Both the position numbers and the translations under genes were made by a program. The notes under the pieces were generated by a model. That model saw nothing but the letters and a program-made list of their open reading frames with translations. It had not been told where the DNA came from and searched no databases. DNA of 39,530 nt from an uncultured Lachnospiraceae bacterium (GTDB lineage Bacteria; Bacillota; Clostridia; Lachnospirales; Lachnospiraceae). Each line of letters starts with the position of its first letter. The first letter of the stretch is position 1. Shown here one piece after another: positions 3,736-26,302 of this stretch. The DNA is taken from assembly GCA_902780385.1 (NCBI GenBank), contig CACZFF010000038.1, forward strand, positions 1 through 39,530, in the 5' to 3' direction.

Positions 3736-3765
3736 TCACAAGACGGATTGTGGGACTATAGAAGG

Positions 3766-3929
3766 AATATTGGTTATAGACCCACCTGAAATTCGAGGAG
3801 TTTTGCGCGTGTTTTCCGCGCAAAACCCGAGTTGTACGGCGCGCGGCGGCGCATATGCGCATTGGAATTGCCGCGCGCAGCGTTACATGTACACGCCCTT
3901 TAAGAGGGCGTGTACATTTAACGAATATT
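3766..3929 (+). ncRNA. Structured repeat element, copy E1 (putative RNA or MITE)
   Basis: Between degV and marR. Hairpin A: GTTTTGCGCG (3800-3809) pairs perfectly with 3817-3826 around the loop TGTTTTC. Then ACCCGAGT and ACGGCG. Stem B: 3839-3847 with 3870-3878 (9 bp), enclosing an inner palindrome GCGCATATGCGC (3849-3860) and the one-sided bulge ATTGGAATT (3861-3869). Stem C: 3881-3899 with 3905-3923 (18 of 19 paired), beginning CGTTAC. The outer ends (AATATT at 3766 and 3924) form an imperfect inverted repeat. Copy E2 at 11014 has the same order of parts with compensating changes in the stems, which argues for a selected RNA fold. Confidence 0.75.
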
Positions 3930-4009
3930 GAGAAAGTGCCGGTGTTCCCTTAAGTATCTTTTGGTCTCAACATCATTACATCATTGTTTCGTAAAGAAGG
4001 ACTTTTACC

Positions 4010-10860: not shown

Positions 10861-11013
10861 CACTGGACATATATACAAGTTGGGTGTATATTATCTAACA
10901 ACGCAGCCGCCTTCGCAGGAGGGGGCTGAACAGACCTGAGACCTGCTTGATCCAATTTGAGTTTTTGCTCCGCTCTCAGGAGAGAGTGCAGAGGAGTAAT
11001 AGAGGAGCAATAG

Positions 11014-11165
11014 TTACTATTCACAGTCTCCGCGTTCGAGGTGTTTTTGCATGTGTTTTTTCATGAAAAAACCCGAGTAAAACGGCGTTTGCCCATGCTC
11101 GAAGAGCATTTGGAATGGGCAAACGCAAGTTACTATCACAGTTCCGAAGGGACTGTGAATAGTAA
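11014..11165 (+). ncRNA. Structured repeat element, copy E2, with perfect 15-bp terminal inverted repeats
   Basis: The ends TTACTATTCACAGTC (11014-11028) and GACTGTGAATAGTAA (11151-11165) are exact inverse complements. Inside, in order: hairpin A (11043-11053 with 11062-11072, loop TGTTTTTT), ACCCGAGT, ACGGCG, a perfect 12-bp stem B (11085-11096 with 11115-11126) enclosing GCTC-GAA-GAGC (11097-11107) and the bulge ATTTGGA (11108-11114), then GTTAC and stem C (11130-11145 with 11149-11165). Loops and linkers match copy E1 while stem bases differ in compensating fashion. It ends 59 bases before the GNAT gene. Confidence 0.78.
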
Positions 11166-11224
11166 TGGAATAACGTGTGTAAAGCGCCCTTACGGGCGGC
11201 ATGTTTGGAAAGATAGAGAGATTT

Positions 11225-20300: not shown

Positions 20301-23078
20301 GTCTGGGTAGAGGGCAGGGACTTCCGCTATAGGGAGGCCAGGACCGACTACGACAGAGAATATGACCGCGATATGCTGACCGGCTGGGACGGCTCGGTGA
20401 ATGGTTCCTACCATGTTCACTTGGAAAACAGCGAACATCGAGACGGATATGACACAGAGTATAAAGTTCTGGATGTGAAGGTGATCAGCGATGAGCCCTG
20501 GGAGGGCGAGGATGGTCCTGTCATCGACGACTTCCACCGCGACCAGAACGAGAATGACCCCCCGGATTACTGGTGGTACTACCGTGTAGAGAACAGGGGC
20601 AAAGCCACGCTTGAAGTCACTTATGAGGACCTGGACGGACAGGAGCAGAAATACACCTTTGATCTCTATGTCGGCGATGACGTGTACCGTGTCCACATGG
20701 ACAGCGTCGACAGTGACAGGCAGGGACTTCCCGGGGACAAGTTTGAGCTCTTCGCAGACGGACATCATGAATTTTATGATGAGAACAAGGACTATCAGGA
20801 TACTTCTGAGGGACTCGGCTACCAATGGAAGATCGAAGAGGGAGGCGAATTTGCCCGCCTCGAGGTCGACCAGAACAATCCCGCAAAAGCTCTCCTGTGC
20901 TTAAATGAAGAACTTCCCGATGGATGGGACTGGATCGATGAGATGATCAGAGTCAGTGTCCGGGTCCTGGACAAGGACGGAAATGAAACCGGCGGATATG
21001 ATGAGTCGAATTTCTGGGTCAAGAGCGAATTCTATGAGATCTGGCCTCTGAGCCTGGATCCCGAACTGGAAATGGGCGATTCCATCGAAGATGTGGAATT
21101 TGAAGTCCGCCAGTACAGTACTGATAAGGAAAACTACGAAGTCATCGATGACTGGTATGACGTCCAGTATGAGTGGCATTTTGATGAAAAAGCCTTCACC
21201 ATTGCCGATGTAACCGACGGGAAAGAGACAGTATTATCCGACGGTGAGACGGCAGAGGGAAATACTTTCACCATCACAAGGAAAGTGGACTGGCATACTG
21301 ATTACTCGGTCAGAGCATTCTGGACGCAGGGACGGGATGAAGAGAGAGATGCCTGGGGCAATTACTGGATCAATCAAAAGAACTATGAGATCCGCTTCTT
21401 CAAGGTACCGGACACGATCAGGAGCAATGAGACCAAGTCCTTTGCCATCGACACGTCAGGTCTGGGCAATTTCAAGCCGGATATCTTTATGTTTGTCACT
21501 TATCAGTCCAAAGAGGGTGAAATTGATGATCCGAGCAACTTTACCGACATGACGGAGGGAGTGGAGTACACGGTCGATCCCTCCGGTACGTCTGTCACTG
21601 TAGACGGAAAGCTGGTCGAGAAAAAGCTCACCGAATCCGCCTATGACAAAGACAGATTCTACATCGGCGCAGCCATGATGTATGATGGTTCACCTTACAA
21701 ATTCTTTAAGTTCTGCCCTGTGGATCTGCTGAGGGGCGATAAAGAGGATCAGGAGATCTCTGCCTCTGATCAGACGATTTTCATGTATGGAACAGGGACG
21801 GCTTCTGTTGAGGGAGCACAGGGAGCCCTGACATTTAACTCCGGCAATGAGAGTATCGTCAAAGTGGACGCCGCATCCGGAAAACTCACCCCGGTGGCCC
21901 CCGGAACTGCACAGATCACTGTCAATGCGGCGGAGACAGATGACTACTATGCCGCTGAAACTACATTTACCGTGACAGTGAAGAAACTGGATCTCAAAGA
22001 TGCAGTGATTACATATTTTGAGCCTTCCGGAGGCTTTGTCTATGATGGGAAGCCCAAGACTCCTCAGAGTATGGTCACCTGCAATGGCGTTTTGCTGAGC
22101 GAAGGGACTGACTATACAGTCTCCTACCAAAATAATATCAATGCCGGAAATGCGACATTAACGATCTCGGGTGTTACAAACTGTGAGGGAACGGCTTCTG
22201 TTGATTTCAATATTGCGAAAGCAGACCAGAACTTCACTGTCAAGGCAAGTGTCACAAGCATTGACGTCGGCAAGACCACGAAGGTGGCCGCGACCGGTGC
22301 CAAGGAAAACCCCAGGTTTACCTTCACATCTTCGAATGCCAAGGTTGCGACAGTCGACGCGGCAGGCACAGTGACAGGCAAGGCGGCAGGCTCAGTAACG
22401 ATCACTGTCAGGTCCGCGGAAACCGCCAACTATAAGGCGGCCTCAAAGACAATCAAGATCACTGTCAACAAAGTCCTGAAGAAACCCGGCAACTGCCACT
22501 TTGTCAAGTGGAATAATGCCAAGTACACCAGCTGCCGGATCGGATGGAACAAGGTGGACGGCGCAGAGGGATATGAGACACTTCTGTCCTGGACAGACGG
22601 ATCCCATGCCAGCAGGACTATTACCAAGTCCAATGTCCTCTACAGGGACTGCACGGTACATCCCCAGCATGTCAGCCAGATGATGGCCAGAGCCTTCTAC
22701 ACATTGAACGGCCAGCGCAAGTTCGGCCCCTGGTCCAATGTGGAATACATCACGCCTTCACCGACCAAACTCACCGTCAAAAACACGAGTTCGGGAACCA
22801 ATCTGAAGATGAACATCAGCTGGAACATCATTTACGGATGCAACGGCTACAATGTATTCCTCACAACGAATCCCAACGGTACCTGGTACTGGAACCAGTC
22901 CACTTCCACGAAAGCGACTGCAACCAGCGCAGCGATCACCAAGTACAGGGGTTCCAAACTAAAGAAGAATGTCCGCTATTACGTCCGGATCGTCACCAGG
23001 CGTCAGCGAAACGGTGTCTTCTGCACCGTGCCCATGCCGGCAGCCAATACGTATATCGGAACCTTTATCATCAAATGA
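17322..23078 (+). CDS. Large secreted repeat protein with Ig-like/MBG-type and FN3-like C-terminal domains
   Basis: A 1918-residue exported protein. Residues 1-29 are a signal peptide (MWKKRACSVLLALMVAMTA, cleavage near VYS-QEA). Residues about 30-185 are Glu/Asp-rich and unstructured. Three long homologous repeats follow, starting near residues 186 (YRVDLVSRDG), 650 (VYGVHVFTEDG) and 1121 (VYRVHMDSVDS); the first two share MLTGW at 547 and 1018, exactly 471 residues apart, and the third is shorter. Residues 1475-1715 hold Big2/MBG-type Ig-like domains (YDGKPKTPQ, GTDYTVSYQNN, TVTGKAAGSVTITV). Residues 1720-1918 look FN3-like. No LPxTG, S-layer or membrane anchor is seen, so it is probably released or held non-covalently. 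Binding partner unknown. Confidence 0.85.
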   Translation: MWKKRACSVLLALMVAMTAIPFSAVPVYSQEAETMQDASDTEAIGEEEVLTQEPAQAAEEAVEEETDTEDVSAAWDAQSQEEEQQQEEALSSEEAAAEDDVPASEVEKKTDAEAEDADDQEKAVEDGPDTAEESSPEADSDDALPSGQADDTQTSDEETPDEVISEEPVTETVSEDAMAEGQNEQYRVDLVSRDGKTIVCPGEEIVLDAHVFRDPDGSAVSSGLKYKWEIVKGIDGGYAALDDNIEGAVGDYPSATLKFTGIPDSASESFGYGVTVKVTVYDGKDSGTELTSGTIDTLLLDEYFEITPHRIDQIQVGEERTIPISIRYCGYYFDSFRYGYDVEWRFTYDENVLQLTDPDGNILDGTGTEPYEPGNSMNEPEITIRRLSGGWTDLEAKATFHYIDHNQNKNFEDGFSKVYHFDGLEDRDENGGRIWFDINENRIFSDGTYSFDLHTEDIPEAYDVQVQVGHYDDNGLVEAYTEGKEYSFDGSKLTLDGQRIFQRGYHWFGMEVQAVSRQDGHILCGNGFGFESWEARAEYDFAEDKEMLTGWYATVNHWERVYVENAGNPKGMDLSYETTNVSIVSQEPVESGREVLEMRIHYPEGDTSSDNYWWHYEAVNQGTAVLRVDYKDIDGNAQSYTFKVYVKGDVYGVHVFTEDGSTVTRPGGTINLETDVWHHSIDDEQEGDTDDLVYAWNLKAVDGSPDPEDFASLQESDGGKQASVTFFAPADFEDQWSELEAEVFIYTGSVAEENKVGYDSIRLSMANSYTELWPAQLDSYADVGTSQTITAEFRIYPGSDGREYDLVSPEDGTVTYYWHYDDDNFRIYDKDGKQVGNDDESGAYIGSDASTGSACDFTIYRKRQWDTDIFLDACWRDANGEEHWENRHFHMDERYYMVWPDVEDDRVFNDGNTSYPVIVDGLPEDAVYGVDYNIDLKIGPLGDHGVDDTFREGVEYTFDGHTLTFNGKKLAECGLEDDQVFGADIALIIADEEVWVEGRDFRYREARTDYDREYDRDMLTGWDGSVNGSYHVHLENSEHRDGYDTEYKVLDVKVISDEPWEGEDGPVIDDFHRDQNENDPPDYWWYYRVENRGKATLEVTYEDLDGQEQKYTFDLYVGDDVYRVHMDSVDSDRQGLPGDKFELFADGHHEFYDENKDYQDTSEGLGYQWKIEEGGEFARLEVDQNNPAKALLCLNEELPDGWDWIDEMIRVSVRVLDKDGNETGGYDESNFWVKSEFYEIWPLSLDPELEMGDSIEDVEFEVRQYSTDKENYEVIDDWYDVQYEWHFDEKAFTIADVTDGKETVLSDGETAEGNTFTITRKVDWHTDYSVRAFWTQGRDEERDAWGNYWINQKNYEIRFFKVPDTIRSNETKSFAIDTSGLGNFKPDIFMFVTYQSKEGEIDDPSNFTDMTEGVEYTVDPSGTSVTVDGKLVEKKLTESAYDKDRFYIGAAMMYDGSPYKFFKFCPVDLLRGDKEDQEISASDQTIFMYGTGTASVEGAQGALTFNSGNESIVKVDAASGKLTPVAPGTAQITVNAAETDDYYAAETTFTVTVKKLDLKDAVITYFEPSGGFVYDGKPKTPQSMVTCNGVLLSEGTDYTVSYQNNINAGNATLTISGVTNCEGTASVDFNIAKADQNFTVKASVTSIDVGKTTKVAATGAKENPRFTFTSSNAKVATVDAAGTVTGKAAGSVTITVRSAETANYKAASKTIKITVNKVLKKPGNCHFVKWNNAKYTSCRIGWNKVDGAEGYETLLSWTDGSHASRTITKSNVLYRDCTVHPQHVSQMMARAFYTLNGQRKFGPWSNVEYITPSPTKLTVKNTSSGTNLKMNISWNIIYGCNGYNVFLTTNPNGTWYWNQSTSTKATATSAAITKYRGSKLKKNVRYYVRIVTRRQRNGVFCTVPMPAANTYIGTFIIK

Positions 23079-23085
23079 TTCACCG

Positions 23086-23119
23086 GCACCGGCCAGGATA
23101 TTTCCCGGCCGGTGCTTTT
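23086..23119 (+). terminator. Terminator of the large secreted protein gene
   Basis: GCACCGGCC (23086-23094) pairs perfectly with GGCCGGTGC (23107-23115), followed by TTTT and shortly by another TTTTT. Confidence 0.85.
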
Positions 23120-23271
23120 GCCTTTTTCGGAGACCGGCAGAGCGGTTGACAGAGCTGTGCCTTTTTCGAAGACCAACAGAGCGGTTGACAGAGCTGTGCC
23201 TTTTTCGGAGACCGGCAGAGCGGTTGACAGAGCGGTGCCTTTTTCGAAGACCAACAGAGCGGTTGACCTTA
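23120..23271. repeat. Four tandem 39-bp repeats in an A-B-A-B arrangement
   Basis: Units start at 23120, 23159, 23198 and 23237 (GCCTTTTTCG...). Units 1 and 3 carry GGAGACCGGCAG, units 2 and 4 GAAGACCAACAG; all contain AGCGGTTGAC. The pattern implies duplication of a 78-bp dimer. Since 39 is a multiple of three, several frames on both strands stay open, but no ribosome binding site accompanies them. Confidence 0.9.
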
Positions 23272-23295
23272 TGGAAGAGATTGTTTATGATAGAA

Positions 23296-23400
23296 GTTAC
23301 TGTTCACACCCTCTCCGGGGAATGAACAAAAGGTATGTATCGGTGTAATCAGCGAAAACCCCATTCCAAATCGCTTATGCTCTTCGAGAAAAAGGACCGT
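23296..23400 (-). ncRNA. Decayed copy (E3) of the structured repeat element
   Basis: On the - strand from 23400: ACGG, then CTCGAAGAGC (23388-23379), then ATTTGGAAT (23371-23363) followed by GGGG, and a final hairpin ending in GTGAACAGTAAC (to 23296). These are the ACGG, inner hairpin, ATTTGGAAT bulge and closing hairpin of copy E2 in the same order. Hairpin A and the CCCGAGT segment are missing. It points away from the FAH gene that starts 53 bases downstream on the + strand. Confidence 0.55.
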
Positions 23401-23452
23401 AAAGTAAAGGCAGGAGAGAAGTGTCAGGGCGGAGCAGCTGGAGGTAGGAATT

Positions 23453-24496
23453 ATGAGACTTGTGACATTTCAGCGATTGAATAACAACGGCGCATTCGAT
23501 GAATCGGCACCTGTCATGCCCCTTTTTGGAATCGGCGCGCCTATGCGCGAACAGGAATCCAGAAGCGGTCTGTTCAGCTTTTTCGGGGAGGAAGTCGGAA
23601 TCCTTTCCAGGGATGGGACAAGGGTGCTGCCCATTGCGGAGACCGGGATCTCCTACCCGGACATGAACGCTCTGATCGCGGGACTTCTTCCGGAAGAGAT
23701 GGAAGTCCTCCGGGATGCAGCTCAGGCATTTGAGATGGCTGCGTCCGACACAGAGTATGCGGAGTCGGAAGAGGGCAGTGAAGAAAACAGAGGGCTTTGC
23801 GTCGGCAGAGATGTAAAGATCCTGTCGCCCATTCCGGTGCCTCTTCAGGATGTCATCTGCCTTGGACTGAATTATACCGAGCATGCGGAAGAGGCTGCGG
23901 CTTATGCCAGGGAGGCTTTCACATCCAAAGACCGCTATCCGGTCTATTTTGCCAAGCGCGTGAATCAATCGCCCGCGGACGGCGATCCGGTACCGGCCTA
24001 TGCGGATCTGGTGGACTCTCTGGATTATGAGGCGGAGCTCGCGGTGATCATCGGGAAGGACGTAAAGGGAATCTCACCGGAGGAAGCTCCGGGATGCATT
24101 TTCGGTTACACCATCCTCAACGATTTTTCCGCCCGCAATCTTCAGACCCGCCACACCCAGTGGTATCTCGGCAAGAGTCTGGACGGATATACGCCGATGG
24201 GCCCCTGCATTGTCACGGCAGATGAGTTTTCCTTCCCGCCCCGCCTCCGGATCAGCAGCAGGGTCAACGGAGAGCTGCGCCAGGACAGCACGACCGACAT
24301 GCTGATTTTCGGCATCGATTACATTATTTCCGATCTTTCCAGGGCCATGACCCTGCGGGCGGGAACGATCATTTCCACCGGTACCCCCAAGGGTGTCGGC
24401 ATGGGCTTTGATCCTCCGAAATTCCTGCACGCCGGTGATACTGTCACCTGTGAGATCGAGGGGATCGGCACGCTGACCAATACGATCTGCGATTGA
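23453..24496 (+). CDS. Fumarylacetoacetate hydrolase (FAH) family protein
   Basis: A 347-residue metal-dependent hydrolase/isomerase or decarboxylase of the FAH fold. The catalytic domain begins near residue 130 (VICLGLNYTEHAEEA), with metal-site motifs SLDYEAELAVIIG (including the two Glu), GYTILNDFSARNLQ, GKSLDGYTPMGP and STGTPKGVGMG. The N-terminal 125 residues are a longer leader domain with an acidic stretch (EYAESEEGSEEN). Relatives include 2-hydroxyhepta-2,4-diene-1,7-dioate isomerase, ureidoglycolate lyase and acylpyruvases; the substrate cannot be decided. The start follows TGGAGGT. Confidence 0.9.
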   Translation: MRLVTFQRLNNNGAFDESAPVMPLFGIGAPMREQESRSGLFSFFGEEVGILSRDGTRVLPIAETGISYPDMNALIAGLLPEEMEVLRDAAQAFEMAASDTEYAESEEGSEENRGLCVGRDVKILSPIPVPLQDVICLGLNYTEHAEEAAAYAREAFTSKDRYPVYFAKRVNQSPADGDPVPAYADLVDSLDYEAELAVIIGKDVKGISPEEAPGCIFGYTILNDFSARNLQTRHTQWYLGKSLDGYTPMGPCIVTADEFSFPPRLRISSRVNGELRQDSTTDMLIFGIDYIISDLSRAMTLRAGTIISTGTPKGVGMGFDPPKFLHAGDTVTCEIEGIGTLTNTICD

Positions 24497-26085: not shown

Positions 26086-26107
26086 ACTGTCTATAAACAA
26101 AATAAAA

Positions 26108-26213
26108 ATCTTCAGGGCAGGGTGCAAGTCCCTACCGGTGGTACAGCCCACGAGCCGCGAGGCATGATTCGGTGGAACTCCGAAGCCGACAGTATAGTCT
26201 GGATGGAAGAAGG
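26108..26213 (+). promoter_or_regulatory. FMN riboswitch (RFN element)
   Basis: The conserved RFN segments are all present in order: ATCTTCAGGGCAGGGTG, TCCCTACCGGTGGTA, AGCCCACGAGCCG, GATTCGGTGGAACTCCGAAG, CCGACAGTATAGTCTGGATG and the closing GAAGAAG that pairs with the first segment. FMN binding should shut off the downstream rib genes by favouring the terminator that follows. Confidence 0.97.
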
Positions 26214-26217
26214 TTTG

Positions 26218-26302
26218 AAAAGGGATGAAAGTGCTGATGCATCTTTTTGATGTGCATGCGGCAGAACAGCTGACGCGGTCAGCGGTTTTTCATTCCCCTT
26301 TT
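26218..26302 (+). terminator. Riboswitch expression platform (first hairpin of three)
   Basis: GCTGAC-GCG-GTCAGC (26269-26283) followed by GGTTTTT is a terminator. AAAAGGGATGAAA (26218-26230) is nearly complementary to TTTTTCATTCCCCTTTT (26286-26302), enclosing the first hairpin, and could act as the competing or extended arm of the switch. Confidence 0.65.

Follow-up and report, generated by a model that had tools for sequence, protein, structure and literature searches.

A structured, probably non-autonomous mobile element with IS66-like ends in Lachnospiraceae

Two related elements in the window

The window, i.e. the whole stretch of 39,530 nucleotides analysed here, originates from an uncultured Lachnospiraceae bacterium and contains two copies of a short structured element, E1 and E2. 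E1 is a 150-bp element at 3773..3922 (+) whose limits follow from comparison with other copies and which matches a covariance model with E=1.1e-34. It is flanked by two identical 8-bp target duplications, GAATATTG, at 3765..3772 and 3923..3930. The initial annotation had placed the copy at 3766-3929; these limits contain the element itself but also include almost all of both duplications. The left end region GTTATAGACCCACCTGAAA (3773..3791, +) is of type 1 and is a shortened form of GTTACAGTACAGACCCACCTGAAA. It is followed by hairpin A (3794..3831, +), which reads CGAGG ... CCCGAG with a conserved CGAG/CGAG base, and by hairpin B (3839..3878, +), consisting of the stem GCGCGCGGC, an inner tip, and a TTGGAAT bulge. 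Hairpin C (3882..3922, +) forms the right end, in which an inner copy of the end repeat is paired with the right end repeat. E1 is a somewhat decayed copy because its left end repeat is shortened and its right end is altered.

E2 is a 154-bp element with type 2 ends at 11013..11166 (+) and matches the covariance model with E=2.7e-23. The first 14 bases of its left end region GTTACTATTCACAGTCTCCGCG (11013..11034, +; type 2) are identical to both ends of one IS66 transposon in a relative (L110) and to one end of another in the home genome (L117). Hairpin A (11037..11077, +) has one mismatch, which had already been noticed. This mismatch is confirmed and is private to E2, since three copies with the same ends (L163, L164, and L168) read CATGC and are fully paired. 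Hairpin B (11085..11126, +) has the stem GCGTTTGCCC, a CGAAG tip, and the bulge TTTGGAAT, and hairpin C (11129..11166, +) again constitutes the right end. Inspection of the E2 flanks for an 8-bp target duplication revealed none that is intact. The constant pieces that had been described occur in each of the two copies, and the stems are altered yet paired.

The element had not been recognised as a known riboswitch or non-coding RNA family, and this assessment holds: no Rfam 15 family matched an element in the window at the gathering threshold or in five home and nine distant loci at E<=1. An FMN riboswitch (RF00050, E 4.3e-26) is located elsewhere in the window at 26104-26218 (+). A scan for end repeats with duplications also returned a pair at 21943-24216 of the window, which agrees in 7/8 bases of the duplication but has poor ends and looks like chance.

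Copy number, insertion sites, and target duplications

The home genome comprises 3.3 Mb in 96 contigs. With the 301 bases surrounding E1 as query it yielded 64 matches, part of which are reverse-strand self-matches of hairpin C. The closest home copies are up to 94% identical to E1, and 44 copies or fragments, counting E1 and E2, were found with blastn in 38 loci and the window. With a covariance model built from 20 copies (R1), the best 150 of 999 home-genome candidates were scored, giving at least 105 matches at E<=1e-3, of which at least 72 are below 1e-10; the weakest matches include overlaps on the opposite strand. Given this number of model matches, the likeness between E1 and E2 is far beyond chance. 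The sites are scattered across the home contigs, and some full-length home copies form clusters of up to 3 that are no more than 2 differences apart.

The copies start with a GTTAC-like and finish with a GTAAC-like sequence, forming inverted repeats that are flanked by 8-bp direct repeats. At a cut-off of E<=1e-8, 100 sources contributed 109 model matches to alignment A2, with 67 from the home genome and 42 from relatives. When the 105 copies of suitable length with both flanks were tested for duplications and the other 4 dropped, a perfect 8-bp duplication was found in 55/105 and agreement in at least 7 bases in 73/105 (flank-shuffled mean, 0.8). In alignment A6, which was fitted to a model and comprises 74 matches mostly from other genera, 71 copies were testable; 38 of these have a perfect 8-bp duplication and 50 agree in at least 7 bases (flank-shuffled mean, 0.9). 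Model matches with perfect duplications are 128-192 bp in length, and therefore there is no room for a transposase gene. Terminal inverted repeats, a target duplication of fixed length (8 bp), small size, multiple copies, and the lack of a transposase gene are all features by which MITEs are defined. The suggestion that the sites might represent a small mobile element carrying the fold has thus been borne out by the copies, the duplications, and the covariation described below.

Mobility is also indicated by home copy L021, the joined flanks of which matched 10/62 genomes of the genus, with the home genome split in two around the element. Two relatives (G010 and G052) match the joined flanks contiguously across the junction (query 2-560, 69% identity) and therefore have an empty site. 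Two others (G026 and G037) match in two separate pieces each, and five further genomes match a single flank.

For gene context, genes were called with a home-made finder, and a copy was regarded as intergenic when it overlapped a called gene by at most 30%. By this measure, of 65 home copies for which both neighbours were called, 63 are intergenic, and 2 more lie at edges. Such a distribution would also fit a fixed, domesticated RNA regulator of particular genes. This explanation is highly improbable, as most testable copies have target duplications, two relatives have an empty site, and the sites are scattered over contigs.

Some loci have unusual arrangements. At L019 3004-3296, elements of type 1 and type 2 are neighbours with opposite orientations, and one 8-bp sequence, CACTTTTG, occurs three times, on their outer sides and between them, as if one element had inserted exactly into the target duplication of the other. 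At L017 2879-3154, a full copy is accompanied by a partial second one, and an identical 8-bp sequence separates the two and recurs behind the full copy; this is a second case of insertion at the duplication. A 196-bp element in a relative (L073 1302-1497, G009) has left-type ends on both sides and a perfect duplication, ATTTTCGG.

Covariation and fold

Conserved pairing despite changed stems had been proposed from E1 and E2 alone. In the larger alignments, the pairing survives many double changes and scores well above shuffled controls. In A2, which was fitted to the model, standard pairs make up 97.4% of the 3813 cells, with a covariation score of 0.384 compared to 0.103 after shuffling and 0.093 for the best slid version. 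A6 gave similar values, with 96.8% paired and a score of 0.302 compared to 0.109 after shuffling. A structure-blind alignment of the core from 46 sequences (A4) has a covariation score of 0.375 versus 0.116 after shuffling, with 0/500 shuffled alignments scoring as high. Stem B is paired to 97.4% in this alignment, with double changes at 7/10 pairs, and hairpin A to 82.2%. One of five measures applied to A4, "further pair types", was not significant (83/500). At the apex of hairpin A there are four pairs that do not form in 20 to 23 of the 46 rows of A4, a failure put down to misalignment. The base of hairpin A fits two registers, either with tandem G.A or with Watson-Crick pairs and a GA bulge. 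The possibility that the bulge pairs with loop A, assessed by eye, was abandoned because loop A varies or is deleted.

One core with several end types

The copies have a common core consisting of hairpin A and of hairpin B with its conserved bulge, together with the right-end hairpin C, which contains the end repeat. Assignment of A2 copies to the nearest consensus, with decayed ends included, yields three end types: type 1 with 51 home and 35 relative copies, type 2 (GTTACTATTCAC) with 11 home and 2 relative copies, and type 3 (GTTACAAGTCAC) with 5 home and 5 relative copies. In the A2 rows listed, the left end, the inner arm of hairpin C, and the right end vary together, and the pieces of the core are constant. 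A different exchange is found in a genome of another genus (G366, loci L275-L294), in which many copies have the same hairpin B and the same ends and a different hairpin replaces A; modules have therefore been exchanged. In four copies (L143, L149, L154, and L160), the bulge of hairpin B reads TTCAGC or TTTAGC instead of TTGGAA.

Distribution in the family

Whether homologues occur in related genomes had been named as decisive for the element, and they were found. R1 matched 12/146 relatives; besides the home genome, these are ten congeners and one genome from a different genus. The core-only model R2 matched 14/397 genomes of the family, representing 13 genera with the home genome included, and single matches in several of these genera are weak, with E from 1e-4 to 9e-4. 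In each of the twelve other genera, reading of the matched loci by eye revealed the same plan, the ends being, for example, GTAACTATTCAG or GTTACTGTTCAC; eight of these genera have copies flanked by perfect 8-bp duplications. A third model built from 13 of the other-genus copies (R3), for which 150 candidates were scored per genome, matched at least 70 times in G218, 115 in G509, 117 in G366, 96 in G226, and 47 in G252, each a minimum that includes weak and overlapping matches. R3 matched 23/392 genomes sampled from the order, and all 23 are labelled as the same family. Among the carriers are Sarcina sp. DSM 11001 and four uncultured assemblies, three labelled Lachnospiraceae and one Eubacteriales.

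This distribution bears on the reading as an ordinary MITE, in which the core would be conserved merely through recent descent from few sources and would have no function beyond carriage. Copies within one genome are often close relatives, as this reading predicts, and long palindromes are often kept by MITEs. It is nevertheless improbable, because the same plan is found across three end types in one genus and in twelve other genera, and because stems are replaced with their pairing kept far above shuffled and slid controls.

Viral contigs searched with three patterns, the second of which did not fit type II sequences, gave no match, and neither did plasmids searched with one type II copy. A phage search with the same copy returned five unannotated scaffolds from human faeces, two of them matching over at least 80% of the query. 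Elements are located at L295 1109-1251 and L296 4221-4367 in human-faecal scaffolds that were deposited as unverified bacteriophage; these scaffolds may be bacterial DNA.

IS66 transposons as likely helpers

Pairing of end repeats with 8-bp duplications at longer range led to a 2628-bp transposon in the home genome (L077 10377-13004; G000:C5:88376-91003). It has the ends GTTACAGTTCAG and a perfect duplication, CAAAAATT, and encodes a 568-aa protein matching the IS66 transposase family PF03050 at 1.3e-10. Its end GTTACAGTTCAGACCCATCTGAAA resembles the left end of type 1, the type of E1, and the commonest form of this left end, GTTACAGTACAGACCCACCTGAAA, differs from the home IS66 end in one base among the first 12. 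The home genome has one more PF03050 match, which belongs to the L117 transposon with the ends GTTACTATTCACGG and GTTACTATTCACAG. This transposon runs to the contig end, which hides any duplication. A relative, L110 in G013, carries a perfect duplication and two ends that both read GTTACTATTCACAG, and with these bases E2 and further type 2 elements start as well. The two home transposases are 27.6% identical, yet elements with either end type have a common core; thus, the core outlasts its ends. The NCBIfam IS66 model matches both transposases clearly, though below its cut-off. Small proteins encoded upstream of both transposases (L077 12300-12674 and L097 3170-3553) look alike by eye and have no Pfam or NCBIfam match above the cut-off.

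IS66-family insertion sequences have end repeats and 8-bp duplications in common with the element. Two members of the family are tabled with the entry 8, which is taken as the duplication length, in the relevant part of PMC3281130. They differ in that the IS66 elements examined are devoid of the core, whereas the element has no space for a transposase gene. An origin of the element as a deleted IS66 derivative was considered and rejected: the core has no match inside the IS66 elements searched, and the IS66 in L112 gave a single weak match at its edge (E 0.06). An IS256 helper was ruled out, as PF00872 has no match in the home genome.

For type 3 ends, no IS66 bearing them was found in the genomes searched. 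Among 12 element-carrying genomes of other genera, PF03050 has matches in 5 and none in 7. Of these five, only G704 has an IS66 between element-like ends (GTTACTGTTCAG), the flanks of which do not match. Three IS66 copies in G218 have different ends, starting with CGTAAACGTCAAACC, and in G366, G509, and G440 no element-like ends were found within the short stretch read near the IS66 matches. The first home transposase matched 4/22 genomes searched; 3 of these are among 11 element carriers, which leaves 8 carriers without a relative. Helpers that have been lost or escaped detection would explain element-rich genomes with no matching IS66.

Judged from the sequences compared here, E1 and E2 are copies of a non-autonomous mobile element with IS66-like ends and a conserved paired core. 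The element inserts at new sites with duplication of 8 bp of the target, and its mode of movement is largely clear: IS66 transposases probably act in trans on the end repeats and thereby move it. Lineages of the element would have taken the ends of different IS66 transposons and kept one core, a habit resembling that of SINEs.

RNA or DNA

The fold of the mobile element could function as RNA or as DNA. For counting G.U versus A.C cells, representatives of the alignments were used (60/109 in A2 and 42/74 in A6). Among non-Watson-Crick cells, G.U exceeds A.C in both large alignments, with 50 v 23 in A2 and 35 v 9 in A6. Counted by distinct kinds of pairs, the ratio is 25 v 15 in A2 (p=0.15) and 23 v 9 in A6 (p=0.02). 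In the structure-blind alignments the numbers are small: in A4, 16 v 7 for stem B and a reversed 4 v 7 for the base of stem A; in A1, 5 v 1 for stem B and 3 v 1 for stem C; and in A5, 5 v 0.

The orientation between tandem gene pairs was compared as sense:antisense, leaving out copies called inside genes. It is 32:14 in the home genome (p=0.011), 11:2 in G218 (p=0.022), and 11:4 in G366 (p=0.12), the samples of the latter two being drawn from the best-scoring copies. Relatives of the same genus have no bias, with 13:11 (p=0.84; 36 copies, 6 more at edges). Summed, the orientation is 67:31 (binomial p=3.5e-4). The G.U/A.C and orientation counts are not independent because the copies are related by descent. 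The G.U excess and the sense bias weakly and indirectly favour a + strand fold that is read out as RNA. No claim is made that convergent gene pairs are avoided (1/63 home copies, 0/36 in relatives), as this failed in G218 (3/23) and G366 (2/22). A TPP riboswitch is located at L033 3574-3685, near two elements of the home genome. An inverted repeat at L019 2800-2883 has sub-threshold matches to several microRNA models on both strands and is probably another palindromic repeat.

In 20 copies, both strands fold about equally well, and therefore a role of the fold as DNA stays open. It is quite possible, though not probable, that hairpins extruded from single-stranded or supercoiled DNA aid transposition or the binding of host proteins. 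The arms could then stay matched by selection on the DNA or by template-switch copying between them. Several features fit a DNA fold besides the equal folding of the strands. In many of the double changes, one Watson-Crick pair is replaced by another, and G.U intermediates are few (for instance, columns 160-244: CG 44, AU 31, UA 23, GU 2); the transposon end also sits inside the right-end hairpin. The tips are often CGAAG, and such tips are very stable in DNA. In addition, mean conservation does not rise from paired to unpaired columns of the core (entropy 0.750 and 0.754, respectively), constancy among the unpaired core being confined to particular pieces. However, the excess of G.U over A.C in both large alignments and the bias of the summed orientation to sense speak against a DNA fold, and copying between arms alone would not hold unpaired pieces such as the bulge and the CGAG base constant.

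If the fold is read as RNA, retained copies may be transcribed by read-through from neighbouring genes, so that the RNA of the + strand folds into a structured non-coding spacer, which makes the insertion tolerable or alters the decay of the upstream message. This role is put forward as a possibility that falls short of being the probable one. A further, rather unlikely view is that the element is a bacterial counterpart of SINEs, a lineage found across the family whose inherited identity lies in a structured RNA core with exchangeable A and B modules, which survives by swapping its ends to match any IS66-type helper at hand and is read in sense within host transcripts.

Relation to known repeats and meaning

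REP and IS200-IS605 type elements, including those with TnpB guide RNA, are not known to have a target duplication. The element does not belong to them, as it has 8-bp duplications and inverted ends. NEMIS/Correia and BOX are short structured repeats; like ERIC and CIR, they share these properties with the element but have other hosts and other ends. The bcr repeats of the Bacillus cereus group have a different sequence and a TTTAT duplication. Unlike bcr1-bcr3, the element has 8-bp duplications, IS66-type ends, and several exchangeable ends on one core.

As far as described in the sections consulted of PMC3446304, bcr1-bcr3 of the Bacillus cereus group are MITE-like intergenic repeats, often located in UTRs or operon gaps; the element likewise is MITE-like, intergenic, and found in a Gram-positive host. 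The presence of bcr1 and bcr2 in B. cereus is without correlation to mRNA decay according to the same source, bcr3 alone being correlated (PMC3446304). An excerpt of PMC2267715 gives lengths of 167 and 147 bp for Bcr1 and assigns it a conserved structure. CIR is described as having two hairpin arms, and ERIC as being cotranscribed and affecting mRNA stability, in the portion of PMC2229807 considered, which does not describe several end types on one core, the feature of the present element, for either repeat.

Among the papers listed by full-text searches, screened by title or abstract opening and with subscription journals largely outside the coverage, none was recognised as describing the element. 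Structured MITEs are known already; new here is a structured element that occurs family-wide and has exchangeable IS66-type ends on one core. Eukaryotic SINEs similarly combine a conserved structured part with ends that suit a helper element. The element differs from them in having the ends of a DNA transposon and a target duplication, and not retrotransposition.

Bacterial MITEs are usually taken for decayed transposons. Covariance models now exist for elements that match no Rfam 15 family. Should the core work as RNA, a large number of transcripts in these bacteria would contain a mobile structured segment that has gone unrecognised.
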